Numbered from the stretch's first letter, positions 5,455-45,838 are shown. The stretch is DNA of 48,477 nt from Deltaproteobacteria bacterium (GCA_019313185.1 JAFDBS010000108.1:1-48477); one strand, 5' to 3'. Notes: generated by a model not told the origin, from the sequence alone. Translations and numbers: made by a program.

Positions 5455-5920
5455 ATCAAACGATCATCAAATTTTTACGAGTTGTTCTCAACTCTTTTAC
5501 CGTCACTTCTTTGTTCAACTCGTCGGAGCAGAGCAAGAAGCGTCTAATGGAACAGTCTCAGAGCTAATCAGGACTGAAAGGCATAGGCTTGAAGATCAAA
5601 CTGCTGACGACCAGCTGTGATCACAACGCTGCGGTCGACTTGAACAACCCTTTGATCGAGAGCTTGCTGACTTTTCACTGAACCACGGATCGAATTGCCC
5701 TTTGCTGCCACAACTTGGCAGAGACATCTTGACCTTTGGTATTCATGCCCCGGAGGGATTTCCTGCGGCGCGCTTGACCAAATCTGCCATACAGCGATTG
5801 CTATCCAAAGGCTGTCCCGGCTTTCTGCAACCTCATGATGTATGACCTCACCCGTATTTTGCTTGATCCAACGAACACACCGAGAGGATGACCATCATGA
5901 TCCTGCTTGGAGTTGCTTAA
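5455..5920. other. Gene-free stretch with no clear content
   Basis: No open frame here has a recognisable motif. One short plus-strand stretch near 5634-5680 vaguely resembles the end of an SlyD/FKBP-type domain but is too short to call. No terminator with a T-run was found after the ferredoxin. Confidence 0.5.
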
Positions 5921-6424
5921 ATGCCAATCCATAATACTGACATCGCCCGCATCTTTAACCGTATCGCCGATCTGCTCGAGATCAGCAACGCAAGCCCTTT
6001 TAGAGTTCGCGCCTACCGCAACGCCGCACGCACCATTGTAGATAAGCCGCAAAGTATCGCACAGATGCTTAAAGACGGTGCTGACCTCAGCGAACTTCCG
6101 GACATTTGCACAGACCTGGCTGGTAAGATTGCCGAGATCGTTGAAAGTGGAAATCTCGCTATGCTCGATGGCCTTGAAAAAGATATTCCTGGGACGTTGG
6201 CTGATCTGCTCGAAATTGACCAGCTCGGTCCGAAACGGGTCGCCTTCCTGCACCGGGAACTTAACATCAACGATCTTGACGACCTCGCCGAAGCCGTCCG
6301 TGCACAAACGATCCAAGGACCCAATGGCTTCGGCATGAAGATCGAGGCCAAAATCCTCAAAAAGCTCGAACGGCATGTGGAGACTGCAGTGCGCTCCATG
6401 CGCGCCGAAGCCGAGCAATTTTAA
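5921..6424 (+). pseudogene. N-terminal fragment of DNA polymerase X (PolX), catalytic part missing
   Basis: The 167-residue product matches the start of bacterial PolX: an 8-kDa-type domain with D-I-A-R-I-F-N-R-I-A-D-L-L-E and PFRVRAYRNAART, then helix-hairpin-helix repeats around LGPKRV (residues 107-112) and GFGMK. Intact PolX is about 570 residues, with a polymerase palm and a C-terminal PHP exonuclease. Here a stop follows AEAEQF, where the family would run on into the palm domain, and the next 240 bases hold no continuation in any frame. The first hairpin, normally LPGIG, reads LPDIC, another sign of decay or divergence. A separately useful DNA-binding fragment is possible but less likely than a broken gene. 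Confidence 0.7.
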
Positions 6425-6665
6425 AATTTTTATGGGGCAAATTAAAACTTTTGCCAGGATTTGCAAATAGACTGCATAAAAGATTACCCTTAAAACCAGG
6501 GCAATTGAAAAGGCAATTTATCGGAAGCACTTCTCGTAAAACAACAATATGTAAAAGTATATAAGGGTGCTATAAAGGAGTTATCGATAGTCTATATTTG
6601 TTATGCACTTATGACTCAACAACTAAAGCTTTTTGTCATATTTGACTTAGGTTAAGTCTGTTCTA

Positions 6666-7496
6666 TCATTCAAGCGAAAAGTGAATGGTGACAAGAAACG
6701 CCCAGGCGTCACGATTGAGTTCAGTGGGGATTGGCTTGAATCGACCGAGGCGTTTAAGACTTCTTATTGCAGCGCGATCCAAAATCGACCAGCCTGAGGA
6801 TTTTTCAATGTTCGTTCGTGAAATAGTGCCATCTTCCAGAACGGTAAAGGTAACAATCACATCTCCTTCCAGACCTCTTCGCCGCGCAGAGTCAGGATAT
6901 TTTTTGTGTTTGGCAAGCTCTCTCAGCAGGGCTTGTAGATAATCATTTTCCAAATTCTCAATATCGAATTCTTTGGTTTGTCCCATAATAGATTCATCAT
7001 CAGTGACAGTATCAGAAATTGACGATTCTGAAATATTTGACATTTCGCGGGAACTCTTTTGCCATTCAAGATCAGATCGTTTTTCGGTTGTTGGGGGAAA
7101 AGTGTCAGGTTTTTCTGCTTTTTTTTGTGGTGCCAGTAGTTTCTGATCGTATTTTTTAGAATCATGCTTTTTAGTAACAGCCTTGACAGGTTCAACAAGA
7201 GTTTTTGTTATCTCATCTTCTTTTTTATTAATGGGTTTTTCTGTCAGGTCTTCTGCTTGAGTTTTTTCTGGGGGTAGCTCTGATTTTGACGGTTCTGTTT
7301 GAGGTTGTGACTTAGCTTCATCCAACTTTATAGTACTTATAACGATGGGAGATTTTTGTTGCTTGGGAAGCAACTTGGCAATATTCGTCCAAAAGAAATA
7401 TCCGACGAGGAGAAATACGACTAGATGAGCCAGTAGAGAAATTGCCATAGCTGAAAACAGCGGCAACAAGTGTCGGTGGGATTTTGTATTTGGCAT
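6666..7496 (-). CDS. tonB: TonB family energy transducer
   Basis: The 276-residue protein has the TonB plan. A short cytoplasmic N-terminus is followed by one membrane helix at about residues 14-36, a long Lys/Glu/Pro-rich periplasmic spacer (about 45-150), and a C-terminal TonB domain at about 190-275 with YPDSARRRGLEGDV, VLEDGTI and LDRAAIRSL. It would couple the proton gradient, through ExbB/ExbD, to an outer-membrane receptor. The receptor gene lies 121 bases upstream on the same strand, so this is probably its dedicated TonB. No ExbB/ExbD pair is adjacent. The ExbB/ExbD-like genes near 39 kb look specialised for something else. Confidence 0.92.
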   Translation of the reverse strand: MPNTKSHRHLLPLFSAMAISLLAHLVVFLLVGYFFWTNIAKLLPKQQKSPIVISTIKLDEAKSQPQTEPSKSELPPEKTQAEDLTEKPINKKEDEITKTLVEPVKAVTKKHDSKKYDQKLLAPQKKAEKPDTFPPTTEKRSDLEWQKSSREMSNISESSISDTVTDDESIMGQTKEFDIENLENDYLQALLRELAKHKKYPDSARRRGLEGDVIVTFTVLEDGTISRTNIEKSSGWSILDRAAIRSLKRLGRFKPIPTELNRDAWAFLVTIHFSLE

Positions 7497-7617
7497 TTAA
7501 TTGCTTAATTTGAACTTGTAAAACTCCTTCAAGGCTTTGGATTAATTTTACATGAAAACATTAGAGGCGCTACCATAGCCATACACACTAGGACAATGAA
7601 ATTTTATACAGGACTAT

Positions 7618-9741
7618 TCAGAGCAGCCATCTCAACGAGATGCCACCATAAACATTGATTTCAGGCGCAGGCTCGAAAAAACGATTGTTGCTCTCGTTGA
7701 CACGGACCGCGCCGATGTATTCTTTATTGAACACATTATTGACCCCCAAAAATGGTCTGAATTCAAAATCTTTAAAGTAAATCGTGTGAACCAGCCGAAA
7801 ATTTGACAAGGCGTAACTCCAGGCTTTGTCCGAATTGGCATTATCAACATAAACCTCATCCACATATTGGGTTTCCCACGAAGCAAAGAGTCCTGACGGA
7901 TGATAGTAGTTTAACTCGATAAACGCATTTTGTTTGGGAATTCCCGGTATCTTGTTACCCTTGAAAGATGTTCCCGAGCTATCAATGAATTTTTTAAATT
8001 CAAAGTCTGAATAAGTATAAGCCATAGACACATTCAAACCTTCCATTGGCTTGATGTTCAAGGACACTTCTAATCCATTTCGAGTCGTTTCTCCGGCATT
8101 GGTATAGTAATCAGAACCGGCTGGGTTTTGTCCTGCCACTATCAGTTCATCATCTGTTTCGATTCTGAAAACGGCCAATTCATAATTTAATACCGTATCA
8201 AGAAAGCCTTTGATGCCAACCTCATAGTTTGTTGCCGTTTGTGGATCAAGATCGTCATTAAAACCACCTGCTGCTGTCGGGTTGGCGAATTCACGACTGC
8301 TTGGAGTTTCAAAAGAGGTCCCGATATTGCCATATAAGTTGATCGCATTGCTATGACTGTAGACTAATCCGACCATGGGGCTGAATTCGGAGAAATCGAT
8401 ATCTCCCGAATCATCCGACCCGTCGTTAAAGTATTTGTCGTTAAAATCGAATTCAACCTCGTCATACCTTGCACCCAAGGTGAGTTCCAAGGCTTCAGTT
8501 ATTTTGAACTCGTTTTGCAGATAGACTCCCCAACTGATGACATCTTCATCCTGGTCAAGAGATTTGGGTCCCACCACATCACTATCGATAATGTTTGTAT
8601 AATTGACCCGATCGTCATTTTGGCTGTCGATTTCAGCACCCACGGTAAGTCGGTTATCGTGCCCAAAGATCTCTCCTTTGTAACTGTATTGCCCACCTCC
8701 CCCGACAACAAATCGGTCGAGGTCGATAATTCCACCCGATGGTGTTACCCCTTGGCCACTGAAGTCGCCAAAAGGCAATTGACCGTCAAAATCTCTGAAC
8801 ACATAATAGTTACGCAAACTAAAATCGTGTAACACCCCAATAGACTTTTTGTAAAGTAAACCTATTTGCTCTTGTTCGACTGACTCTCCGGCGTCAAATC
8901 TCAAGTTGTTTCTCTGGGCAGCTTTCGGTGTGGAAATATCGACATTAAATGCGTTGCCCGTCCTGACCAGTCCTCCCGGATCGTCCGCCTTGGGTGAATC
9001 CACAGCGTTGACAGTCAGCGTCAGATTGGAACTCTCATCAAAGTCGTAGCGAAATTTAGAATTTAACAGGGTGTTTTTTGTGCCGCTATGATCGCGATAT
9101 CCATCATAATTGAGCTTGGACACATTAACGAGGTAATTCAACTTGCCTTTTTGCCCCCCGAATTTAAAGTGATGCTTACGGAAATCATATGAACCGAAAC
9201 TGGTCCGTAATTCCACGAATGGCTCATCCTCAGGGCCATCTTCGGTATACATGTTAATCACACCGCCCGATGCAACACCATATAAAGAGGATGCTGGCCC
9301 TCTTATAACCTCTATGCGATCGAGGGAACCAATATCAATGCTGTCAACCCCTCCTTGCCCATCGGGCAGAGTCGCTGGGATTCCATCAACATAGAGCTTG
9401 ATGCCCCGGATGCCGAACGTTGCCCTCGCACCGAACCCTCTGATAGAAATCCGCAAGTCCTGGGCGAAATTGTACCTGTTCTGCACAAATAGCCCTGGGA
9501 TTTTCACCAGCGATTCATCAATGCCAATCTGCTGTCTGCCGAATTGAATATCATCCATACTGACGTAACCGATGGAGACAGGCGTCTGGTAGAGGGATTT
9601 TTCTACCCTGGTCGCGCTCACCGTGATATCACCCAGGTGTACCGTCTCAGGGGTGTTTTTGGCTATGGCCTGCGCGCCACAAAAGACCGGCACAAACGTG
9701 CCGAGAATAAATGTTGTTATTGCGATCGTTTTCCACTGCAT
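7618..9741 (-). CDS. TonB-dependent outer-membrane receptor
   Basis: This 707-residue receptor begins with a signal peptide (about residues 1-28) and a TonB-box-like VHLGDITVSATR. The plug domain contains SIRGFGARATFGIRG, LYVDGIPATLPDGQG and IEVIRGPASSLYG, and a 22-strand-type barrel ends in a terminal aromatic-rich strand (ISLRWLL). It should import a scarce ligand such as a siderophore, metal complex or vitamin. The motifs do not settle which. No cobalamin or other riboswitch was seen ahead of it. It follows the GST-like gene by 37 bases and precedes tonB, so the three probably form one transcript. A role in metal supply for the PQQ dehydrogenase downstream in the window is possible but untested. 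Confidence 0.92.
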   Translation of the reverse strand: MQWKTIAITTFILGTFVPVFCGAQAIAKNTPETVHLGDITVSATRVEKSLYQTPVSIGYVSMDDIQFGRQQIGIDESLVKIPGLFVQNRYNFAQDLRISIRGFGARATFGIRGIKLYVDGIPATLPDGQGGVDSIDIGSLDRIEVIRGPASSLYGVASGGVINMYTEDGPEDEPFVELRTSFGSYDFRKHHFKFGGQKGKLNYLVNVSKLNYDGYRDHSGTKNTLLNSKFRYDFDESSNLTLTVNAVDSPKADDPGGLVRTGNAFNVDISTPKAAQRNNLRFDAGESVEQEQIGLLYKKSIGVLHDFSLRNYYVFRDFDGQLPFGDFSGQGVTPSGGIIDLDRFVVGGGGQYSYKGEIFGHDNRLTVGAEIDSQNDDRVNYTNIIDSDVVGPKSLDQDEDVISWGVYLQNEFKITEALELTLGARYDEVEFDFNDKYFNDGSDDSGDIDFSEFSPMVGLVYSHSNAINLYGNIGTSFETPSSREFANPTAAGGFNDDLDPQTATNYEVGIKGFLDTVLNYELAVFRIETDDELIVAGQNPAGSDYYTNAGETTRNGLEVSLNIKPMEGLNVSMAYTYSDFEFKKFIDSSGTSFKGNKIPGIPKQNAFIELNYYHPSGLFASWETQYVDEVYVDNANSDKAWSYALSNFRLVHTIYFKDFEFRPFLGVNNVFNKEYIGAVRVNESNNRFFEPAPEINVYGGISLRWLL

Positions 9742-22174: not shown

Positions 22175-22300
22175 AGATTAAAATTTAGCTTTGTTGATCA
22201 ATTAACCCTGCACTGAAGAAGAAAACTCGCACCACAATCAATAGGCATTCAAACAATGTTATAGCCCACCAATTGAGTGGTGGGGGAAAGGGTGACAAAG

Positions 22301-24070
22301 ATGATAAAGATTCATAACGTCAAACTAAGAACCGCAGTCGCAACATTCGCATGTTTCGGAATGATTGCTTTGGCTAGCAGTGCCATCGCAGCGGGCAATG
22401 TTACCGAAGAAATGATTCTGAACGACGCGAACACCGTGGAAGATGTCGTTTCCTACGGCATGGGTCCCCTCATTCAACGCTACAGCCCCCTGAAGCAGAT
22501 CAACACGGAAACCGTCAAGAAGCTAGCTCCGGCATGGACTCTTTCTTACGGCGCTGAAAAGCAGCGCGGTCAGGAAGCCCAACCGATGGTCAACGATGGC
22601 AAGATCTTCGTCACGGCATCCTACTCACGTGTTTTCGCAGCAGATGCTCGCACAGGTGATGAGCTTTGGGAATACAACCATCGCCTGCCCGAGGGCATCC
22701 TGCCTTGCTGCGACGTTATCAACCGTGGCAACGCCCTGTATGAAAACCTTGTCATCTTCGGTACCCTAGACGCACGCCTGGTCGCCCTCGACCGTGACAC
22801 CGGCGACGTTGTCTGGGATGTTGCTACCGACGACTACAAAGCTGGCGTTTCGATCACCATGGCCCCATTCATCACCAAGGGCGGCCTTGTTATGGTCAGT
22901 AACGCCGGTAGCGAATTCGGTGCTGTTGGCTGGGTCAAGGCATATGACGCCAAGACCGGCAAGAACGTTTGGGAGCGCCCGGTCATCGAAGGTCACATGG
23001 GCACCCTTAACGGCAAGCCTAATGGCATCACCGGCACCACCAACGCCACCTGGCCTGGCGACCTCTGGAAGACTGGCGGCGGATGCCCTTGGAACCAGGG
23101 TAGCTACGACCCCGAGTTGGACATGGTTTACTTCACCACCGGTAACCCGGCGCCGTGGAACGCCTACAAGCGCCCTGGAGACAACCTCTACACTACCTCG
23201 ATTCTCGGTATCGATGCCAACACTGGCATGATCAAGTGGCACTACCAGACTGTTCCGAACGACGCATGGGACTTCGATGCTATCTCCGAACTTCTGCTGT
23301 TCGACTTCGAGATGGACGGCAAGGTCATCAAGGCCGGTGCCCAGGCTCACAAGAATGGTTTCTTCTACATCCTCGACCGCACCAACGGCAAGCTGCTGAG
23401 TGCCGAGCCTTTCGTCAAGGAAATCAACTGGGCGAGCGGTGTCGACATGAAGACCGGTCGTCCCATCGAAACCGGCAATCGTCCTGGCGACCCGGCAGAA
23501 TCTGCTGACGGCAAGCAGGGCAAGACCGTTTGGGCCGTTCCGAGCTTCCTCGGCGGCAAAAACTGGAACCCGATGGCTTACAACCCCGAAAACGGCCTCT
23601 TCTACATCCCGGCCACCGAGTGGGGCATGGACATCTGGAACAACCCGATCAGCTACAAGAAGGGTGCTGCCTATCTCGGCGCCGGCTTCACCATCAAGCC
23701 GGTATTCGATGACTACATGGGCGCCATGCGTGCTTTCGATCCCAAAACCAGTAAGATTGTCTGGGAAGTCAAGAACCCCTCTCCTCTCTGGTCTGGTGCT
23801 CTGGTCACCGCCGGCAACCTGGTCTTTTACGGCACTCCTGAAGGTTACCTGAAGGCTCTGGATGCCACAACTGGCGCAGAACTGTGGCAGTACAACACCG
23901 GTTCCGGTGTTATCGGTTCACCGATCACCTGGCAAATGGATGGTGAGCAGTGGGTTGCCGTGCCTTCCGGCTGGGGCGGCGCTGTGCCTCTGTGGGGCGG
24001 CGAAGTTGCCAAGGCTGTCAAACACCTCAACCAGGGTGGCAGCCTCTGGGCTTTCAAGCTCGTGAAGTAA
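22301..24070 (+). CDS. PQQ-dependent alcohol dehydrogenase with lanthanide-type Asp-x-Asp signature
   Basis: The 589-residue periplasmic quinoprotein starts with a signal peptide ending near AIAAGN (residues 28-33). It has the vicinal disulfide C136-C137, a metal-ligand Glu at E205 (GSEFG), Asn in GNPAPWN (N282), the catalytic Asp D324 in DAWDFD, and a second Asp two residues on (D326). In methanol and ethanol dehydrogenases the extra Asp marks lanthanide enzymes (XoxF, ExaF, PedH); calcium enzymes have Ala or Ser there. It oxidises alcohols and passes electrons to cytochrome c, here probably the PedF-like gene downstream. Codon choice is strongly biased to C-ending codons, unlike its neighbours, which suggests very high expression. 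The ATG at 22301 best fits the signal peptide. In-frame GTG codons at 22277 and 22292 are alternatives. Confidence 0.93.
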
Positions 24071-36794: not shown

Positions 36795-36834
36795 AGTCTC
36801 GTCTTGAAATAAGTTGACATCTGGAGACTTATTT

Positions 36835-37510
36835 ATGGACAGGGTAGACAGCAAGCAGAAGAGACGGACGCAACGTGATTACACCATAGGCTTTAAATTG
36901 CAAGTGGTTGCCGCCCTAGAACAAGGCTATAAGCAGGTCCAGAAGGTTTATGTCATGCAGGGGCGCTCAGCAGTGCTAAAAAGGCTAAATAAGCACGGCA
37001 AGCTGGATTGGGCCCAACTTGTGAGGCTGACGATACCCAAGACTTCCAAAGCCAAAAAGACTCCGGCTCAAACCAACAAGCGACTTGAGCGCGAGCTCGA
37101 GGATGAGCGTCTTCGCAATCTGCTGTTGAATGACGTGGCGGATAAACTGGATGCAGAACACGGAGCCGGACTGAGAAAAAACATATTCCAAGGAGCACGA
37201 CGCCTTTAAGAACAAAAAGAGGTCAGCTTGAGCCGCGCTTGCAGGCTTTTTGGCATCACGCGGCAAGCCGTTTATCAAAGAGAACAACGCACTAAGCAAC
37301 GCGTGATAGAGTTGGCCCAGGTCCAGGGCATGGTGATGTAGCTAAAAGTATGATGCCAAGAGTTGGAGGACGCAAATTGAATTTTTGCTGAAACCCACAT
37401 TTGAAGATCCTGGTTGAAGAATCTGTCGATATTTACAACCGCCTGCGGCCGCATCTTATCCTGGGCTTGAAACCACACCAGAACAAGTGCATGACCACCT
37501 CCGAAAGGGA
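36835..37510 (+). mobile_element. Degenerate IS3-type insertion sequence (orfA intact-looking, orfB decayed)
   Basis: The frame from 36835 to 37209 reads as an IS3-type OrfA: RRTQRDYTIGFKLQVVAALEQG, then QGRSAVLKRLNKHGKLDW. After it, pieces of OrfB appear in shifting frames: SRACRLFGITRQAVYQREQ near 37230-37290, MPRVGGRKLNF near 37352-37385, and near 37420-37500 IYNRLRPHL and TPEQVHDH, which is the C-terminal end of IS3 transposases. The DDE catalytic core between them is missing, so the element is dead by internal deletion and frameshifts. Terminal repeats could not be set. It separates the PQQ locus from the minus-strand operon to its right. Confidence 0.8.
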
Positions 37511-37595
37511 GGAGACTTGATAAAAAACTCTCAACGTATTTGAGGACGTAACACGTTTAAATTTTAAATTCAGCAGCGTCTTAGGCAGACCGTCC

Positions 37596-38300
37596 TTAAT
37601 AGTCGAATTCGGTTAACTCCATCACCATGGTCCCACCGACAAAGACACCGGTATCAAGTTTCTCGGTACGCTCAAGCTTTACCAGCCCGACACCAAGAGC
37701 ATACCATTCATGGGTGGTGACCGGCAGTTCTCCCCAACCGATGCGCGGATCGACATACATGGTCAGGTCAGCTTCGCCAACAACCTCGATGCAGTTCTTG
37801 AAAACACCGGCTGGAACCCTAACGGTTGCGTCTGTCGATTCAATGTGATAGTTCATTGGGAAGGTGATGCTGCGATGGTAAAACTCAAGATACGGATGGA
37901 CGCGCCGGATCACATAGGGGTGAGTTTTCACGACCCAGGAAGTCCCTGCTTCGAGAGGATATTTCAAAACGAAACGTGGCTCGGGGTCCATCGTCACCTC
38001 AAGATCGACAATCGTACGCTTACCGACCCGGTATATCCCCTTCTTGTCCTGCTTGATCAGATAATCCGTGCCCGAACTGGTACGACGGACAAAGTAATCT
38101 GTGCCACCAACACTCTGGCTTCCAAGGCTCCTGATTTGGAAGGATTTCTCGGTCACTACACCGCGTTCGGTTCTGGTCACGATCCGGTAAGACCATTCAA
38201 TGTCATTTTCTTTTGGGAAATAGCCGGTCGGTTCCGACGAACACCCGGTGCATAGAAATGCCAGTAACCAGATGAGCCAGCTTCGTCGAATGAATTTCAT
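37596..38300 (-). CDS. Lipoprotein of unknown function, last gene of the channel operon
   Basis: The 234-residue protein has a lipoprotein signal with lipobox L-C-T-G-C at about 16-20, so it is anchored by C20. The mature part is beta-rich (for example WSYRIVTRTERGVVTEKSFQIRS and a WGELPVTTHEWYALGVGLVKLER end), similar in style to outer-membrane-associated lipoproteins, but I do not recognise a named family. It overlaps the preceding gene by four bases and so is coupled to the ExbB/ExbD-like genes. Confidence 0.8.
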   Translation of the reverse strand: MKFIRRSWLIWLLAFLCTGCSSEPTGYFPKENDIEWSYRIVTRTERGVVTEKSFQIRSLGSQSVGGTDYFVRRTSSGTDYLIKQDKKGIYRVGKRTIVDLEVTMDPEPRFVLKYPLEAGTSWVVKTHPYVIRRVHPYLEFYHRSITFPMNYHIESTDATVRVPAGVFKNCIEVVGEADLTMYVDPRIGWGELPVTTHEWYALGVGLVKLERTEKLDTGVFVGGTMVMELTEFDY

Positions 38301-38809
38301 TTTTCAGGCATCTCCGGGTCAGGAAGATCATAGATACGAATGATCTTGCGCTTTTCTGAGAATCTCCCCAAGTTGTTCGAACTCTCAGCCTCTAGAATCC
38401 ATTCCATCTTACCCAGTTGCATGATGCCGTTGCGAGTGCGCTTTTCGGCCGCCTCGAGCATCGTATGCATCTCTGAATCATAGTCCAACCGGTATGCTCG
38501 CGGTTCAGTGGCCGGCATGTTTTCGGCAAGCGAGCTGGCCCAGACATAAATCACGCCTTTACTGCCGGTCGTTTTGTCCGGTTCTTGGATAGACGTAGCC
38601 AACAGCAGGAATCGATCAGGCAGGTTGGCCGATGTCGGCCAGCCTTGAAGACCTCCGAGTGACAGGTAGGTGACAAAGTACAAGGTACTGATCAGCAGAA
38701 TACTGACGAACTTGACCCAGACCGGCCAGCGGGTACTCACCATGAGCCCGAGAAGTAAAATTCCCAACGCTACGTATGCGATGGACAATCCAATAACAGC
38801 CTGAGTCAT
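38297..38809 (-). CDS. Membrane protein of unknown function in the channel operon
   Basis: The 170-residue product has two clear membrane segments at about residues 5-27 and 32-53, then a soluble domain (FLLLATSIQEPD, IYVWASSLAENMPATEPRAYRLDY). No family is recognised. It overlaps the genes on both sides by four bases (38806-38809 and 38297-38300). With the channel, ExbD-like and lipoprotein genes it forms a complete inner-to-outer envelope set. Confidence 0.8.
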   Translation of the reverse strand: MTQAVIGLSIAYVALGILLLGLMVSTRWPVWVKFVSILLISTLYFVTYLSLGGLQGWPTSANLPDRFLLLATSIQEPDKTTGSKGVIYVWASSLAENMPATEPRAYRLDYDSEMHTMLEAAEKRTRNGIMQLGKMEWILEAESSNNLGRFSEKRKIIRIYDLPDPEMPEK

Positions 38810-39414
38810 AATTTCTTCACCTCGACAATTGATTTGTAAAGTGTATTGATCGCTTTCACCTGGCCGTCCCGGCTGAGGGAAAAGCGGACCGCCGTTTTCT
38901 CGACCCCCTTCTGTTCCAAGGTCACATTGCCATAAAACACCACTTCCAGTTTCGGGTTAACTTTGACCACCCTCACATTTGCCGTCACCGGTTGCTCGGT
39001 TTTCGTTTCGTAATAGTGCAGGTTGACAACGTACTCACCGGGCAGGGTACCTCGAATTGTGACCACCTCCTGATTGAGCGGATTGGCAATCTCCCTGCCA
39101 TTGACCATGATGGTATCGTTTTCCATGCCGCGATCGTCACGGTCAAGGTGCATCAGAGCGATTGCCGGCTTGCGGAACCAGACGACATTACCGTGGGGAT
39201 CCTCAACCCACATATCGACATCATCAGTATTGAAGTCATCCCAGGTGGTGGTGACGATATACTCGGCTTTCGGGTCGATCAGTCCTTCTTTTGGCGGCGG
39301 ATTGAGTGCGACCAGGGCCACCATGAAGAGGAAGGTAAACGCAAGCAGGCAGTTGAATAATAAGTCCGTAAACGGATCCTGGTCATGTGGTCGTCTGGCT
39401 CTCAGGATGGCCAT
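38806..39414 (-). CDS. ExbD-like protein with YfaP/DUF2135-like periplasmic domain
   Basis: The 202-residue product has one membrane helix at about residues 15-38. Its start DPFTDLLFNCLLAFTFLFMV aligns with the ExbD helix, and D17 takes the place of the proton-path Asp (D25 of E. coli ExbD). After the helix there is no ExbD peptidoglycan or TonB-binding domain. Instead the sequence DDVDMWVEDPHGNVVWF, DRDDRG, and LPGEYVVNLHYY resembles the DUF2135/YfaP-type extracellular domain. The start is two bases from the stop of the channel gene. A proton-driven role is inferred from D17 and the adjacent channel. Confidence 0.72.
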   Translation of the reverse strand: MAILRARRPHDQDPFTDLLFNCLLAFTFLFMVALVALNPPPKEGLIDPKAEYIVTTTWDDFNTDDVDMWVEDPHGNVVWFRKPAIALMHLDRDDRGMENDTIMVNGREIANPLNQEVVTIRGTLPGEYVVNLHYYETKTEQPVTANVRVVKVNPKLEVVFYGNVTLEQKGVEKTAVRFSLSRDGQVKAINTLYKSIVEVKKL

Positions 39415-39416
39415 CT

Positions 39417-40244
39417 TTAAGACCCATTTTTGGCAATACGCGGAATCACGGCTGTCTGTGCATAATGCACGGTGTGACTGACCAGTTTATCAGCGCCACG
39501 GTCGAGCATCAGGTACTGCAGGCCAAGAAGCACATTAGCAGCGAGCCCGGCCAGAGTCGTGTTCAGGGCGACGCCCATGCCGATCGTCATCCTTGAGAGA
39601 AGACTCTGGACATCCGACAGGTCGAGGGATTCCATGGTCGTGACGGTACCCAGCATCATGACAAAGCCGATAACCGTTCCCAAAAGGCCGAGCTTCAAGG
39701 CCAAACCACTGATGAACCAGCCGATTTCATGCTGGCCACGGGCGCGTTCCGCGAGGATCTCTGCAAGCTGCGTATGTTCCAATTGTAATTCCGGTGCCGA
39801 AGTGCAGCATTGGTAGCGGAGAAGGATTGAACGCAGGTAATCAACGGGTAGTGACGCTTTCAGCGGTTGCTTGTTGAGTAGCACAGATTCGCCTTCCAGT
39901 TGCAGGACAGCCTCGTCTTCGTCGTTACTTTCTTCAAGCTCATTGATCAGGTTCAGCTGTTGAGATATGAAGAGGGTACGAACACCACAATGAACGGTGG
40001 TGCCGAGAAACAAGAGCGAGATGACATAGCAGACACGGGTCGGGTCTTTCTTAAGAATCTGGCTCAAGACCCCCTGGTCCCATGCCAGCCAAAGAGCAAA
40101 GCACAGAGCACAGGCAAAAATGAACCATTGTAGAAACAACTGATGTCTTTCGGTTCTGTCGAGCATATGTCCCTTTACTCCAGGAGAATTGATAAATGTC
40201 TTGTTATGCCGCCTTGTTCTGAAAAAGGTTTTCAGCGCATTCAT
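39417..40244 (-). CDS. MotA/TolQ/ExbB-type proton channel protein
   Basis: The 275-residue protein has membrane segments near residues 37-56, 69-88, about 178-205 and 220-245. The conserved TolQ/ExbB core GLALKLGLLGTVIGFVMML and MGVALNTTLAGLAANVLLG carries the T and A/G residues that line the proton path. A long acidic cytoplasmic loop (ELEESNDEDEA) is unusual. It would form a pentamer around the ExbD-like partner encoded next. It follows the second PQQ-dehydrogenase-like gene by 42 bases on the same strand, so co-transcription is likely. Confidence 0.85.
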   Translation of the reverse strand: MNALKTFFRTRRHNKTFINSPGVKGHMLDRTERHQLFLQWFIFACALCFALWLAWDQGVLSQILKKDPTRVCYVISLLFLGTTVHCGVRTLFISQQLNLINELEESNDEDEAVLQLEGESVLLNKQPLKASLPVDYLRSILLRYQCCTSAPELQLEHTQLAEILAERARGQHEIGWFISGLALKLGLLGTVIGFVMMLGTVTTMESLDLSDVQSLLSRMTIGMGVALNTTLAGLAANVLLGLQYLMLDRGADKLVSHTVHYAQTAVIPRIAKNGS

Positions 40245-40286
40245 TGCCTTGCCCAGTCATGAAATATTTTCATCATCTCAACCTGC

Positions 40287-42131
40287 TTATTTATCATCGA
40301 GGGTAAAAGCCAGGATCAGGTCCCCTGTCTTGTAACCAAACAGCTTGTTCCCACCGGCAACCACGGCAATATATTGTTTGCCATCAACGGCATAGGTGAC
40401 TGGCGGTGCGTTAACGCCGAAGGCCGACGTGTAGCGCCAGAGTATTTCGCCGGTTTCGGCATGCATTGCCAGTAGTTTGCCATCCCCTTCGCCGGCAAAA
40501 ACCAGTTTCCCAGCAGTTGACAAGGCTCCGCCGACCATAGGGAGGTCAGTTTTGCGCTGCCAGCGAATCGCCCCAGTATTACTGTCAATCGCGGTAACTG
40601 TTCCCCAGCGTTCATCACTTGATGGTTTGCTATAGGTGTAACTCTGCCAGGGTCGCTCCGGTGACGGCTGCAATTGCTTTGAGAAATAAGTTGTCGGGTG
40701 GTGAACGGCAACCACGTACAAGCTGCGAAGCTTGGGATTATAGGCCATGGGCGACCAGGAGGCCCCACCGAAAATCCCCGGTGCGATCTCTACACCCTGC
40801 TCGGAAGGGCGTTTGAACATATTACGTTGTGGTACAAAGGGTTTTGACTTGAACAATAAACGACCTGTCTGGCGTTCAAGGAAATAAACCCAGCCGGTTT
40901 TCCCGGCTTGGGCCACCGCCTTAATTGGTTGACCATTGATGTTTACCTCTAGAAGTACGGGCGGGCACGCTGCGTCGTAGCCCCAACGATCGTGAGGAAC
41001 CTGTTGAAAAACCCAGGCCGTTTTTCCGTTAGCCATGTGAATTGCAACAAGACTGACAGTATTGAGATTATCACCCGGCCGGGTCGAGTCATCCATTTGA
41101 GGTGCTGGGTTCCCAGTACCGACAAACATCAGCCCAGATTCCGGATCAATTGCTGGAGTGGTCCATATTGAACCACCTCCAAGGCGCCAGGTCTCTTTGT
41201 AGTGGGGCGCCGCTTTTTTTTCCTGCTCTATATCGCGATTTAAATCTTCACCTCCGGGTGTAGTCTCACGATATTCTCCAACCCATGTTTCATCCTGAAC
41301 AGTGTACCAGCGCCAGAGCTCCTGTCCGGATTCGGCGTCATAAGACACCAGGAAACCACGTAAACCATGACCTCCTCCGGATAATCCCACGACTGAAAGC
41401 TCAGTATCTCCATCTGGTTTCATATCAAGGTGCAAACCGTATCCTGCACCGGTTATGCCGACAAAGACCTTCCCGTCATAAATCTGGGGCGCCATGTTTG
41501 CACTGTAACCAGTTCCTCCAATGATCTTGGCATTTTCAAAACCGGTTTCTCCCAGAAGAGGGGCCAGGGCTTCACGACGGCCAGTTTGAGGATCTGTTAT
41601 CGGAACATCCCAGGCAACCTTTCCGGTTTTTTGATCAAGGGCAATCAGACGTGCGTCAATGGTGACGGTGTAAACTTTATCGTTTCCGACCGCCACTCCG
41701 CGATTAGCTGGGCCACAGCACGTTTTCTTGGTTGTGAGTTGATGATGGTAACGCCATATCACCTCCCCATTCGCAGCATCGAGAGCCAAAACATCGTTCC
41801 ATGGCGTTGATAGGTATAACACACCGTCTAGAACAATCGGTGTCGCTTGGAAAGAGCCTATTTTACCAGTATGGAAAGACCAAGCGAGCTTGAGATTGCC
41901 GACATTGACATGGTTGACTTGAGACAGTTGACTGAATCGATGATTGGCGTAATTATGACCATAAATGGGCCAATCAACGGCAGGAACAGCCTTCAGCTGC
42001 TCCCCGGAGTTGGCAATGGCCCGGGGCAAAAAGACAAAGAAACAAAAACACAGAATGTAACAGACGTCCCTGAGATATTGGTTGTTTAAAAACCCACAAG
42101 TTGTCTGCTGAAACATCAGAAATAGTCTCAT
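40287..42131 (-). CDS. PQQ-dehydrogenase-like eight-blade propeller with altered active site
   Basis: About 610 residues with a hydrophobic export signal near 22-41, W-docking blade motifs, and the vicinal disulfide C138-C139 in KKTCCGPANRG. The metal-ligand Glu of the GxSGAE motif is replaced (GITGAGYG, about 226-232), with about 24 extra residues inserted before HGLRGFLVSYDAESG. The catalytic Asp is a Gly: PHDRWGYDAA has G384 where the other dehydrogenase has D324, although the +2 Asp (D386) and GNPAPQ Asn are kept. So the fold and disulfide are retained but the usual metal/base site is not. It may bind PQQ for another purpose or use a different mechanism. The start is uncertain because the promoter lies almost on the first ATG; ATG at 42116 is an alternative. 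Confidence 0.85.
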   Translation of the reverse strand: MRLFLMFQQTTCGFLNNQYLRDVCYILCFCFFVFLPRAIANSGEQLKAVPAVDWPIYGHNYANHRFSQLSQVNHVNVGNLKLAWSFHTGKIGSFQATPIVLDGVLYLSTPWNDVLALDAANGEVIWRYHHQLTTKKTCCGPANRGVAVGNDKVYTVTIDARLIALDQKTGKVAWDVPITDPQTGRREALAPLLGETGFENAKIIGGTGYSANMAPQIYDGKVFVGITGAGYGLHLDMKPDGDTELSVVGLSGGGHGLRGFLVSYDAESGQELWRWYTVQDETWVGEYRETTPGGEDLNRDIEQEKKAAPHYKETWRLGGGSIWTTPAIDPESGLMFVGTGNPAPQMDDSTRPGDNLNTVSLVAIHMANGKTAWVFQQVPHDRWGYDAACPPVLLEVNINGQPIKAVAQAGKTGWVYFLERQTGRLLFKSKPFVPQRNMFKRPSEQGVEIAPGIFGGASWSPMAYNPKLRSLYVVAVHHPTTYFSKQLQPSPERPWQSYTYSKPSSDERWGTVTAIDSNTGAIRWQRKTDLPMVGGALSTAGKLVFAGEGDGKLLAMHAETGEILWRYTSAFGVNAPPVTYAVDGKQYIAVVAGGNKLFGYKTGDLILAFTLDDK

Positions 42132-42136
42132 ATTAT

Positions 42137-42166
42137 TTTATAAAACAAGCTGAGACCAACTGTCAA
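42137..42166 (-). promoter_or_regulatory. Strong sigma-70-like promoter of the second PQQ-dehydrogenase operon
   Basis: On the minus strand TTGACA (42166-42161) and TATAAA (42142-42137) are 18 bases apart, close to consensus. Transcription would start near 42130, almost at the first ATG (42131), implying a leaderless or very short leader, or a start at 42116. The remaining bases up to 42451 hold no visible gene. Confidence 0.6.
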
Positions 42167-42451: not shown

Positions 42452-45400
42452 TTAAATGTCATTGTATTCAGCCAACCAGCACAATGTATTCACCAATGCC
42501 ATCTGCTCCACTGTATAACACTTGATCGCCATCAACCTGGGATTTGCCACCAAAACTGCCAAACAGCGGGCCCTGGAAAGAGCCACATTGATCCGGTTTT
42601 TGCTGTACAAAAATTCGATATGCCTTGGCAAATAATCGCCGCTTGAAGTCGCCATCGAGACGATCACCGCCTCGGCCTCTTGCCCCTGGAATTTGTCGAC
42701 AGTACCCACCCGTGCATCACCCGGCAGGTTGTCTTTCAAGAGATTGACCTGCATGTTGTAGGGGGCAACCACCAGAATGTTGTCTGCATTCATGGGGTGC
42801 GGTTGGCCGTTGCGGTCTACGTAGCCTTGCTTCAGCAAACTCGCATAAAGATCTGAGACTAATTTTGCTTCTTCAAGGCTTCGCTGGGAGCAGCCGTCAT
42901 GATCGACTCCGACAAAGCGAATACCTGTCGGCTTTAGTCCCGGATGCGCATCCGGCGTCAGAACCAGTCTCTGATTTTGATTGCCCGGCTCTGCTTTCAA
43001 ACGACCGTCGTAAACAGCCTGTGAAATAAATTGACAGACATCATCATGCATGCGCCATGAGGTGTCGAGAAACACGCCTCGATCATCGGCAATGGTGGCC
43101 TCTCCCTGGAGCAGGTAATCCAGAGCCGATTCTCCCGAATGGCCCGGATGGACACCCTGAACAGGCTGCTGGAGTTGCATCTGGTCGCCAAGCAGGACAA
43201 TGTTTTGCGCGCTGGTGCTCATCGCTACCAGGTTGGCCAGAGAGACCTGCCCGGCCTCATCGACAAACAGATAGTCCAAGGCCTGATCAAAAGCAGGATC
43301 GGCGAACAGCCAGGCCGTACCGGCAACCAGGTTGGCGTTGGAGACAATCACTGCATTCTTGTCATTCTCATCCTCAATCAGCGAGCCATTGAAGTATGTC
43401 TCGAGCCCTGATGATTTCTTGATGCCTCGAAACCTGACCTGTTTCTCATCTGCGACCTGTTCAACCGCGCCAAGGAGGTTGTTGATAGCTTTGTGGCTGT
43501 TGGATGAAATGCCGACCCTTGCGCCGTTTTTCAGCAGATCGACGATCACGTGGGATCCCGTGTAGGTTTTTCCGGCGCCGGGTGGACCTTGAATGAACAA
43601 GTAGCTTTCCTGAAGCCGGCTGACGACATCGCTGATCTGCTGAATCTGGCTGGTCCGATCCATCAATATTGGTGACCCCGCTGGAAGTCCTTTGATCGAT
43701 GGATGCTGTCTGGTAAGGATCGCTTTCAAGGCTTCATATTTTGCTGCGCCGGCAATGAGGCAGTCAGCAAACCGGTAAACCGCTTCCCTCAAAATATCGG
43801 TACTGATCGGTCCAGTCGTGATCACTGACAACCGTTCTGGAAGCGTACCGCTGCGTTTACCAAGTTTGATCCGAACCAGCCTGTTTCGCTCATCGATCGA
43901 CTCGATGGTCCCGGCACGGTCCAGTGTGTCGGAACGCAGGCAACTGTCACCGGCCTTGAGCTTGAACTCCTGGTCAGGATAACGGAATGTATAGATCACA
44001 GATTGTTTGATCGCATTGGGCGGATGTCCAGGGTCAGACTGCAGGGCACCGATCGCCTCAGGTTCGTCGATCAGCTCTTCTTCTGTCATCTCTTGCCGTG
44101 CAAACATCGCCCACCAAGACGGTTTGTCCGCCCGGCGATGAAAGTCCAGCAATTGATGCACTAACTCGCGCAACCGGTCATTCTCGCCCCAATCGCCTCT
44201 GTCGGTGGGCAAGTCTGCCGTCAGTTTGTCTGCATACGTGGCAAGGCGGGCTTCTGCTTGCCGTACTTTTTCACTTTTCTGTTCATTAAGCAGTTGATCC
44301 GGCAGTGGCGTAAACCAGAGGCATTCAGGCGGACGGATGTCGAGAAGCCATTCGCGCAACAGGTAGGTCGAACGGCAGTCGTCTTCATTGTAGCGGCTGA
44401 TTTGCTCAAGCAGTTGCGAATCTTGGGTGTCTTTCCAGTACTCGTAGTAAACGATGCTCGCTCCCGCATCGGTCACCTCGCCTTCCCGCTTATCCATGTA
44501 AAACGTCTCGAGATTCTTGATCGAATAGCGTGGTGCAGACACCAGCACAGACTCCCGGACAATTTTATACAAATCAACCAGTTTTTCAGTACGCAGCAAA
44601 TGATCCACTTCCACTTCGCATCTCCCGTGGAGCGACATCAGTTTTTTAAGGGCCGTCTCTTCATACGAAGCGTAATGGTAAATGTGCATTTGCGGATATC
44701 GGGCCAAACGCTCCATGACAAACGCCATGAAGGCTTCAAACGCCCGGCGTTCCTCGTCACGGTTGTGAGCCCAGAACGGTTGAAACTTGGCCGCGCCATC
44801 TTCGTGGTAATAAACCCCGAAGAGGTACTCCAGCCCCCCTTCTTCGAGAGGGTCCCCTTCCATATCGAAAAACAGATCACCGGGGCTGGGTTTGGGCAGC
44901 CTCTGAAACCCCCTGATCTCGTCAGGATTGGTTTCCAAAAGCTCATACCGGTTTTCGCCTGTTTCTCGCAGGGCGAACTGCAATGCCGCCTGGCGTTGCA
45001 GGCGGTTTAGAATCGCTGGACGGATTCCCGCAACACCCGCAAAACTGATTTGTGCTCGAGCAAGCTCTGCAAGAGTCGAAATGCCTGCCGCATTCAACTT
45101 TTTAATCTGGATTTTGTTGATGTTGGCAACCTGGCACAGGTGATCGTCTTCAGCCCATTTGGCCATGCACAAGTCCCGCCAATGACACAGGTCGCAGTGG
45201 GGGCACGGCTCTGGATAAGTCTCTGCCTGACTTCCCTTGACCTTGACCTGTTCGAGAAAACGGGATTTGACTGTGCGGTAATAATGGAGGAAATCGGCGA
45301 GTCGGTAGTTCTGTTCTGTCCGGTCGCCCAACACCACGTGGAGCATATTGGGCAAGAGGTGTTGTGCCTCGGCCAGAAGGTCTGAATACAGGCAAAGCTG

Positions 45401-45838
45401 CATGATAAATTTTGCCTTGGTACTCCTGGCCAGCTTGGTGTCGATCACTTCATAGCTGTGGTCGCCCAGGCCGGATGGCCGATCCACTTTTCGTAGAAAA
45501 TCGACATGGCCGATAAAGTCTTCTGATTGAAGACACCCCTGGAAGATCACCGGAACCCCATCAGACATGGCCTGATGGGTGGCCTGTACAGATTGCTCAA
45601 GACTTGCACCGTCGGTCTCGATGGAAACCACGTTGATCCCTTTGTGCTGGAGATTTGCCAGATACTGGGCTTCGTGCTCAAACCCTTTTTGTTGGATCAG
45701 CTTGGTCTGCTCGTCATCTTCTGTTTTGGGTAAAGGCGTTTCAAGGTGGAACAAATCCAGAGTCGTCAAATGCTCGCATTCGAGAAAGTTCACCAGGTCG
45801 CTCGCCGAGAAAATGGTTGTCCCATTGCGTTTTTGCAT
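42452..45838 (-). CDS. TM0106-type RecB-like nuclease fused to an RNase H-like domain and superfamily 1 helicase
   Basis: The 1128-residue protein has three parts. Residues about 1-230 form a RecB-like nuclease with D113 and the DTK of IDTK (133-135), and a Cas4/AddB-like Fe-S set: C21 plus C212, C215, C218, C224. Residues about 320-500 form an RNase H/DEDD-type domain (DLFFDMEGDP, YNEDDC). From about 740 comes an SF1 helicase with Walker A GPPGAGKT (751-758), DEAGQ, GDQMQLQQP and a C-terminal VGTVDKFQGQEA and NVALSRAR. It would unwind and cut DNA or RNA-DNA, in repair or defence. The product is intact. No partner genes are adjacent. Confidence 0.88.
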   Translation of the reverse strand: MQKRNGTTIFSASDLVNFLECEHLTTLDLFHLETPLPKTEDDEQTKLIQQKGFEHEAQYLANLQHKGINVVSIETDGASLEQSVQATHQAMSDGVPVIFQGCLQSEDFIGHVDFLRKVDRPSGLGDHSYEVIDTKLARSTKAKFIMQLCLYSDLLAEAQHLLPNMLHVVLGDRTEQNYRLADFLHYYRTVKSRFLEQVKVKGSQAETYPEPCPHCDLCHWRDLCMAKWAEDDHLCQVANINKIQIKKLNAAGISTLAELARAQISFAGVAGIRPAILNRLQRQAALQFALRETGENRYELLETNPDEIRGFQRLPKPSPGDLFFDMEGDPLEEGGLEYLFGVYYHEDGAAKFQPFWAHNRDEERRAFEAFMAFVMERLARYPQMHIYHYASYEETALKKLMSLHGRCEVEVDHLLRTEKLVDLYKIVRESVLVSAPRYSIKNLETFYMDKREGEVTDAGASIVYYEYWKDTQDSQLLEQISRYNEDDCRSTYLLREWLLDIRPPECLWFTPLPDQLLNEQKSEKVRQAEARLATYADKLTADLPTDRGDWGENDRLRELVHQLLDFHRRADKPSWWAMFARQEMTEEELIDEPEAIGALQSDPGHPPNAIKQSVIYTFRYPDQEFKLKAGDSCLRSDTLDRAGTIESIDERNRLVRIKLGKRSGTLPERLSVITTGPISTDILREAVYRFADCLIAGAAKYEALKAILTRQHPSIKGLPAGSPILMDRTSQIQQISDVVSRLQESYLFIQGPPGAGKTYTGSHVIVDLLKNGARVGISSNSHKAINNLLGAVEQVADEKQVRFRGIKKSSGLETYFNGSLIEDENDKNAVIVSNANLVAGTAWLFADPAFDQALDYLFVDEAGQVSLANLVAMSTSAQNIVLLGDQMQLQQPVQGVHPGHSGESALDYLLQGEATIADDRGVFLDTSWRMHDDVCQFISQAVYDGRLKAEPGNQNQRLVLTPDAHPGLKPTGIRFVGVDHDGCSQRSLEEAKLVSDLYASLLKQGYVDRNGQPHPMNADNILVVAPYNMQVNLLKDNLPGDARVGTVDKFQGQEAEAVIVSMATSSGDYLPRHIEFLYSKNRINVALSRARCLAVLVANPRLMAIKCYTVEQMALVNTLCWLAEYNDI

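Follow-up and report, generated by a model that had tools for sequence, protein, structure and literature searches.

A conserved B-D-M gene unit common to phages and a few bacteria, with features of an ion-driven membrane motor

The operon and its five products

We have analysed a run of five genes in a 48,477 nt stretch of DNA from a Deltaproteobacteria bacterium (GCA_019313185.1 JAFDBS010000108.1:1-48477), referred to below as the window. The five ORFs occupy positions 37596-42131 on the minus strand. Taken as longest ORFs, two neighbouring pairs are 42 and 2 bases apart and the other two pairs overlap by 4 bases each; these coordinates agree with the five-gene run reported in a preliminary description of the locus. 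The features, in the order of transcription, are as follows.

42137-42166, minus strand: promoter-like match TTGACA-18-TATAAA
40287-42131, minus strand: PQQ-like quinoprotein, 614 aa
39417-40244, minus strand: B, ExbB-like protein, 275 aa as longest ORF
38806-39414, minus strand: D, ExbD-like protein, 202 aa
38297-38809, minus strand: M, membrane protein, 170 aa
37596-38300, minus strand: outer-membrane-type lipoprotein, 234 aa, lipobox LCTGC

The true start of B is probably the ATG at 40166, 78 bases downstream of the longest-ORF start, since this Met coincides in the alignment with the first residue of the homologue in a second genome carrying the operon (L005, see below) and a Shine-Dalgarno-like sequence, GGAGTAAAGGG, is located just upstream. 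With this start the distance between the quinoprotein and B genes becomes 120 bases; the 42-base gap given earlier holds for the longest ORFs only. The near-consensus promoter proposed earlier is present as a perfect match to TTGACA-18-TATAAA at 42166-42137 (allowing one mismatch, 0.19 matches would be expected across the window). However, its −10 box stops 6 bases ahead of the quinoprotein ATG, which leaves the annotated start without a 5′ leader, and a general promoter scan listed nothing at this position.

B scores 35.4 bits against the MotA/TolQ/ExbB family model PF01618 (Pfam cut-off 22.9), as anticipated by its earlier identification as an ExbB/TolQ-like channel. PF01618 is matched individually by 47 of 49 members of the B family (E<=0.05), and the family profile matches solved ZorA, MotA, TolQ and ExbB chains in PDB (E-values from 3e-6 to 0.009). 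B has four hydrophobic segments. The motif GLLGTVIG contributes residues G186, G189, T190 and G193, and the motif GMGVALNTTLAG contributes G222, A226, T230 and G233; six of these residues (G186, G189, G193, G222, T230 and G233) are invariant in all 49 members, while position 190 is occupied by Thr in 37 members and by Asn in 12. The phage B proteins are short, with about 138 aa. A second ExbB-type gene with a stronger match (C216, E=1e-38) is present elsewhere in the host genome.

D has a single predicted N-terminal transmembrane helix (residues 14-37) followed by a beta-sandwich (structure prediction, mean pLDDT 88.8). Asp17, four residues inside the helix, had been noted earlier, and its loss in relatives would have spoken against the earlier proposal; Asp is found at this position in 55 of 56 D proteins, the exception being L031. 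Twelve further positions are invariant in the family (W58, D65, D67, D93, D94, G96, D100, N114, E116, R121, G126 and Y128). The term ‘ExbD-like’ thus applies to the layout, one helix with an Asp, but not to the sequence family, as none of the 56 members matches the ExbD/TolR family of Pfam (E<=0.05). The DUF2135/YfaP-like domain previously assigned to D could not be established: the window protein scores 13.3 bits against a cut-off of 22, a single member out of 56 matches DUF2135 (E=0.0022) and a large protein linked to D by profile (L043) does not match it either. Searches of D against Pfam, NCBIfam, PADLOC and PHROGs gave no family above cut-off, and Pfam detected no recognised peptidoglycan-binding domain in D members. 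A fold search yielded no significant solved match (best E 0.008); the fold does match nine viral predicted structures with E<0.001, at modest TM-scores and with uninformative names.

M is predicted to have two transmembrane helices, 3-25 and 30-54, followed by a C-terminal beta domain (pLDDT 88.5). It belongs to no known family in Pfam, NCBIfam, PADLOC or PHROGs, and a fold search with M gave no significant solved match, the best (E 0.024) being to OB-fold-like proteins. In PHROGs, B, D and M all remain unmatched at E<=0.01, for the window proteins as well as for phage copies. The N-terminus of D and the loop between the M helices are positively charged; by these charge patterns the D and M domains would be located in the periplasm.

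The quinoprotein is a beta-propeller similar to PQQ dehydrogenases, with strong matches to TIGR03075 and TIGR04528 that stay under the curated cut-offs; for TIGR03075 the score of 444.6 bits is below the 480.05 set for PQQ-dependent methanol/ethanol dehydrogenases. In an alignment with 1kb0 and 1kv9 the vicinal Cys-Cys is retained, and both the metal-ligand Glu and the catalytic Asp, roles that we take from what is established for methanol and ethanol dehydrogenases, are replaced by Gly. Identical substitutions occur in the L005 quinoprotein. Dehydrogenase activity is therefore unlikely; the protein is probably non-catalytic and, with the catalytic residues lost, more likely to be a binding or sensing propeller. 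The L005 quinoprotein ORF is broken across two frames, possibly through an error of assembly. The large lipoprotein encoded at the end of the operon is weakly similar to DUF3108 (22.1 bits, cut-off 27), and a gene with 70% identity takes the equivalent position in L005.

Distribution and neighbourhood of the B-D-M unit

A scan of 84,980 species genomes with the single D sequence as a query, a search of low sensitivity that finds close relatives only and thus samples bacteria thinly, produced one match, in a distant MAG titled uncultured Nitrospirae bacterium ES_M_CG2-30-53-67 (L005). L005 carries all five genes in the same order as in the window. NosR-like genes, as well as genes for TonB and TonB-dependent receptors, occur in the vicinity of the L005 operon and, in the window, outside the five-gene run.

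A viral scan with the single D sequence gave no match, but relatives were found by tblastn and by alignment-based scans. With tblastn, D homologues were detected in 27 records of Rhizobium or Sinorhizobium isolate phages, as well as in Azospirillum megaplasmids. In all three isolate phages examined (Rhizobium phages N34, N3_13 and 16-3) D is directly preceded by B and directly followed by M; the isolate records examined list the phage copies as hypothetical proteins. In Azospirillum brasilense Sp7 there are two complete B-D-M cassettes with about 25 kb between them. From IMG/VR, two alignment-based scans retrieved 100 loci (some contigs being counted twice) that encode 58 distinct D proteins. 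All three genes were present in 98 of the 100 loci, in the order B-D-M in 97, and B and D usually overlap or are a few bases apart. The single exception to the order (L115) reads M, trypsin-like protease gene, B, D. A T4-type capsid gene was found on 11 of 21 cassette contigs tested and in none of 14 control genomes; a terminase was found on seven of the 21. From the capsid and terminase genes, together with the isolate records, we conclude that B-D-M is truly phage-borne, jumbo phages included; phages account for most of the wider relatives. Its recurrence in order across very diverged genomes is more than chance, and B-D-M is a conserved unit common to phages and a few bacteria. The possibility that these genes occur mostly apart, which would have spoken against the earlier proposal, is thus dismissed for the core.

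The situation is different for the two outer genes. The quinoprotein and the large lipoprotein accompany B-D-M only in the window genome and in L005, and neither is present in the phage and Azospirillum cassettes examined, which makes them lineage-specific partners. The five-gene order looked for in other genomes was recovered in L005. The earlier proposal, a machine of five genes for which the quinoprotein acts as sensor or client, fits the gene set of the window genome and L005 only.

No D gene was found in 57 relatives of the host genome. Among 395 genomes of the host phylum the only full-length match was in the host genome itself, and three weak matches corresponded to domains within large proteins; one genome out of eight in the L005 phylum has D. 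Between the window and L005 the operon proteins share 68-86% identity, but the RpoB proteins only 58.5%. This difference, along with the lack of D in the relatives searched, indicates that the operon has spread horizontally. In a tree of concatenated B, D and M, the window and L005 sequences fall into one clade with environmental phages, jumbo phages among them (bootstrap 100), and Azospirillum joins a large phage contig (bootstrap 96); the tree settles neither the position of the root nor whether transfer went from phages to bacteria or the reverse.

We also looked at genes neighbouring the phage cassettes. By motif, 21 of 60 phage loci have a trypsin-like protease gene no more than about 3 kb away (22 with L012, added by Pfam), compared with one distal match in a similar amount of sequence. 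The protease-linked loci come mostly from related phages of the 16-3 type, with L008, L012, L068 and L115 making separate lineages; most marine phage loci have no protease gene. A Pfam scan of 113 neighbouring phage proteins, with most 16-3-type loci left out, showed Trypsin_2 as the commonest domain (three matches) and no single dominant partner. In three loci (L011, L053 and L055) an endolysin gene (GH108 in L011) and a spanin-like pair are followed about 85-115 bases downstream by B-D-M, and in about half of the 16-3-type loci a phage lysozyme and Rz/Rz1-like genes are located 4-6 kb upstream. In a few phages (L006, L017, L076 and L085) M is followed by a small lipoprotein gene. By a strict rule, a lipoprotein gene is present just downstream of the cassette in six of 52 loci, where 1.2% is expected; a downstream lipoprotein is hence a feature of a subset and not a general rule.

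A putative envelope motor and the alternatives

Judged from the alignments, the conservation in B and D is the pattern expected for an ion path of the MotA/ExbB type with an Asp-bearing axle. We consider it very probable that B-D-M is an ion-driven motor, and it probably exerts force on the envelope; any specific client that we could name at present is unlikely to be the right one. Of the force-transducing envelope machine proposed earlier, the ion-motor part is supported by the conservation of Asp17 and by the near-constant company of B, D and M, while force transduction is inferred. Taken as a whole, an envelope motor made of B, D and M that occurs in phages as well as bacteria, and is tied here to a probably non-catalytic quinoprotein, is the best explanation and in our judgement somewhat more probable than its negation.

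We infer the workings of B-D-M, from its oligomeric state and ion flow to force transfer, its client and its part in infection, along the following lines. B, D and M would assemble in the inner membrane as a small motor of MotA/ExbB (5:2) type. Ions, carried by Asp17, would cross between the B ring and the D transmembrane helices, and their flow at Asp17 would turn or strain D. The D beta-sandwich and the periplasmic domain of M would then pass the motion to a periplasmic or outer-membrane partner. This partner may be host-specific: a protease or small lipoprotein in phages, the large lipoprotein and the propeller protein in the window bacterium. The phage cassette probably acts on the host envelope in the course of infection, often with the trypsin-like protease or small lipoprotein encoded nearby. 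A broader proposal, which we advance tentatively, is that phage-encoded B-D-M motors, in T4-like jumbo phages and in temperate phages of the Rhizobium type, work the host envelope, and that bacteria of unrelated phyla tie the motor to envelope proteins of their own, here the lipoprotein and the non-catalytic quinoprotein. Several observations run against the best explanation. D has neither the ExbD/TolR periplasmic domain nor a recognised peptidoglycan-binding domain, T190 of B is replaced by Asn in a quarter of the family (12/49) and D of L031 lacks the Asp; as to the partners, the protease is missing in most marine phage loci and the downstream lipoprotein is confined to 6/52 loci.

The window encodes a TonB-type protein together with a TonB-dependent receptor (6666-9741). 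Such genes also flank the L005 operon, the receptors of the two genomes being 53% identical. The bacterial operon could accordingly be an accessory Ton-type energiser in which B and D drive TonB and a receptor, with the quinoprotein and lipoprotein capturing the substrate. Yet the TonB and receptor genes of the window lie 28 kb from the operon, no tonB gene is inside any of the cassettes seen, D is without the ExbD family domain and the host genome has another, stronger ExbB-type gene (C216); a receptor gene beside the phage copies was not noticed. We regard this explanation as quite improbable. The phage cassettes invite another one, control of lysis, where a gated ion leak or envelope strain would time lysis together with endolysin and spanins. 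The loci with an endolysin and spanin-like pair directly ahead of B-D-M, as well as the 16-3-type loci with lysozyme and Rz/Rz1-like genes upstream, are consistent with such a role, which is nevertheless rather unlikely: in many other phage loci no lysis genes adjoin the cassette, in Rhizobium phage N34 it sits among replication genes and bacteria retain it without lysis genes.

About equally unlikely is an antiphage or superinfection-exclusion device similar to ZorAB, that is, a motor activated when a rival attacks the envelope. ZorA is among the best matches of B, and in phage 16-3 a few kb separate the cassette, which is part of an accessory region, from the immX genes. However, the similarity to ZorA spans only about 67 residues, the long ZorA tail is missing, D has no OmpA-type domain, the operon has no ZorC, ZorD or ZorE gene and PADLOC finds no match for D or M.

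Relation to known systems

Ion-driven motors of the MotA/ExbB type operate in flagella, in the Ton and Tol systems, in gliding and in Zorya. No description of phage-encoded ExbB/ExbD-type motors was found in the open-access literature searched, which is weak evidence of absence (a jumbo-phage paper merely cited a Ton-dependent phage), and B-D-M is apparently a phage gene family of motor type not described in that literature. If the motor reading is correct, viruses own a compact membrane-energised machine with a third subunit, and B-D-M represents an unrecognised family of envelope machines common to phages and bacteria. With a B of about 138 residues it would also be a minimal motor for structural work. 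As B-D-M is present in a laboratory model, the Sinorhizobium meliloti phage 16-3, its role in infection is directly testable.

The cassette resembles ExbBD (Ton) and TolQR (Tol-Pal) in having a channel protein of the MotA/TolQ/ExbB type and a single-helix partner encoded by adjacent genes, the partner bearing a conserved Asp in the membrane close to where its helix begins. It differs from them in that the beta-sandwich of D matches no ExbD/TolR model, M is nearly always present, TonB or TolA is absent from the cassette and phage B is short. The conserved Asp of MotB, TolR and AglQ/S has been reviewed (PMC9389320). A survey of MotAB describes generic ion transporters (GIT) with adjacent A and B genes, whose B subunits carry varied appended domains, many of them of unknown function (PMC12505986); in the portion of the survey consulted, phage-encoded members, an M-like third subunit and a D-like domain are not named.

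ZorAB of Zorya resembles the cassette in that, of the solved structures, ZorA is one of those that match B best (E 7e-6). A PADLOC scan of the five proteins, together with gene lengths, does not place the operon in Zorya: B is without the ZorA tail, D is without a recognised peptidoglycan-binding domain of the ZorB type and the ZorC, ZorD and ZorE genes are absent. Finally, the quinoprotein shares a beta-propeller with a vicinal Cys-Cys with PQQ-dependent alcohol dehydrogenases and acido-empty-quinoproteins (TIGR03075 and TIGR04528), and differs from them in the change of the metal-ligand Glu and catalytic Asp to Gly, seen in both genomes.

Quinoproteins and flanks of the operon

The window encodes a further quinoprotein at 22277-24070, which retains both the Cys-Cys pair and a WDFD motif and shares about 33% identity with the PQQ-like quinoprotein of the five-gene operon; it is possibly the active enzyme of this region. 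In the uncultured Nitrospirae genome carrying all five genes in order (L005), the quinoprotein gene (5469-7116) is divided between two reading frames.

Upstream of the operon lies one large gene:

42452-45838, coding for a protein of 1128 aa that contains RNase H-like as well as AAA helicase domains

This protein also gave a weak match to PD-(D/E)XK. Just past the 3′ end of the operon, at 36814-37560, we noted by eye remnants resembling insertion-sequence transposases; a Pfam search of these remnants returned no match.

The cassette in Azospirillum and phages

The cassette, composed of genes for the MotA/ExbB-type channel (B), the Asp17-helix protein (D) and the two-TM protein (M), is present twice in complete form on the same megaplasmid of Azospirillum brasilense Sp7 (L118 and L009), with a spacing of about 25 kb.

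Among the neighbors of phage cassettes, Pfam yielded a single match to the Pycsar effector PycTM, whose likely origin, by inspection, is the gene immediately upstream of B in phage locus L077 (4672-5388). Host-like genes, recognized by Pfam or by eye, lie close to the cassette in the large phages L061, L070, L053, L055 and L059, which collectively carry:

DnaK, ClpS, DnaJ, ClpA, peptide deformylase and SbmA/BacA

A second motor-like pair in the same genome

Another unusual motor-like gene pair was observed at 329-3314 of contig C53 (L002), from the same genome as the window. One member encodes an ExbB-type protein, and the adjoining gene encodes a single-helix protein, which combines a membrane Asp with a von Willebrand A domain. 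The gene beside the pair resembles, by eye, those for formylglycine-generating enzymes.
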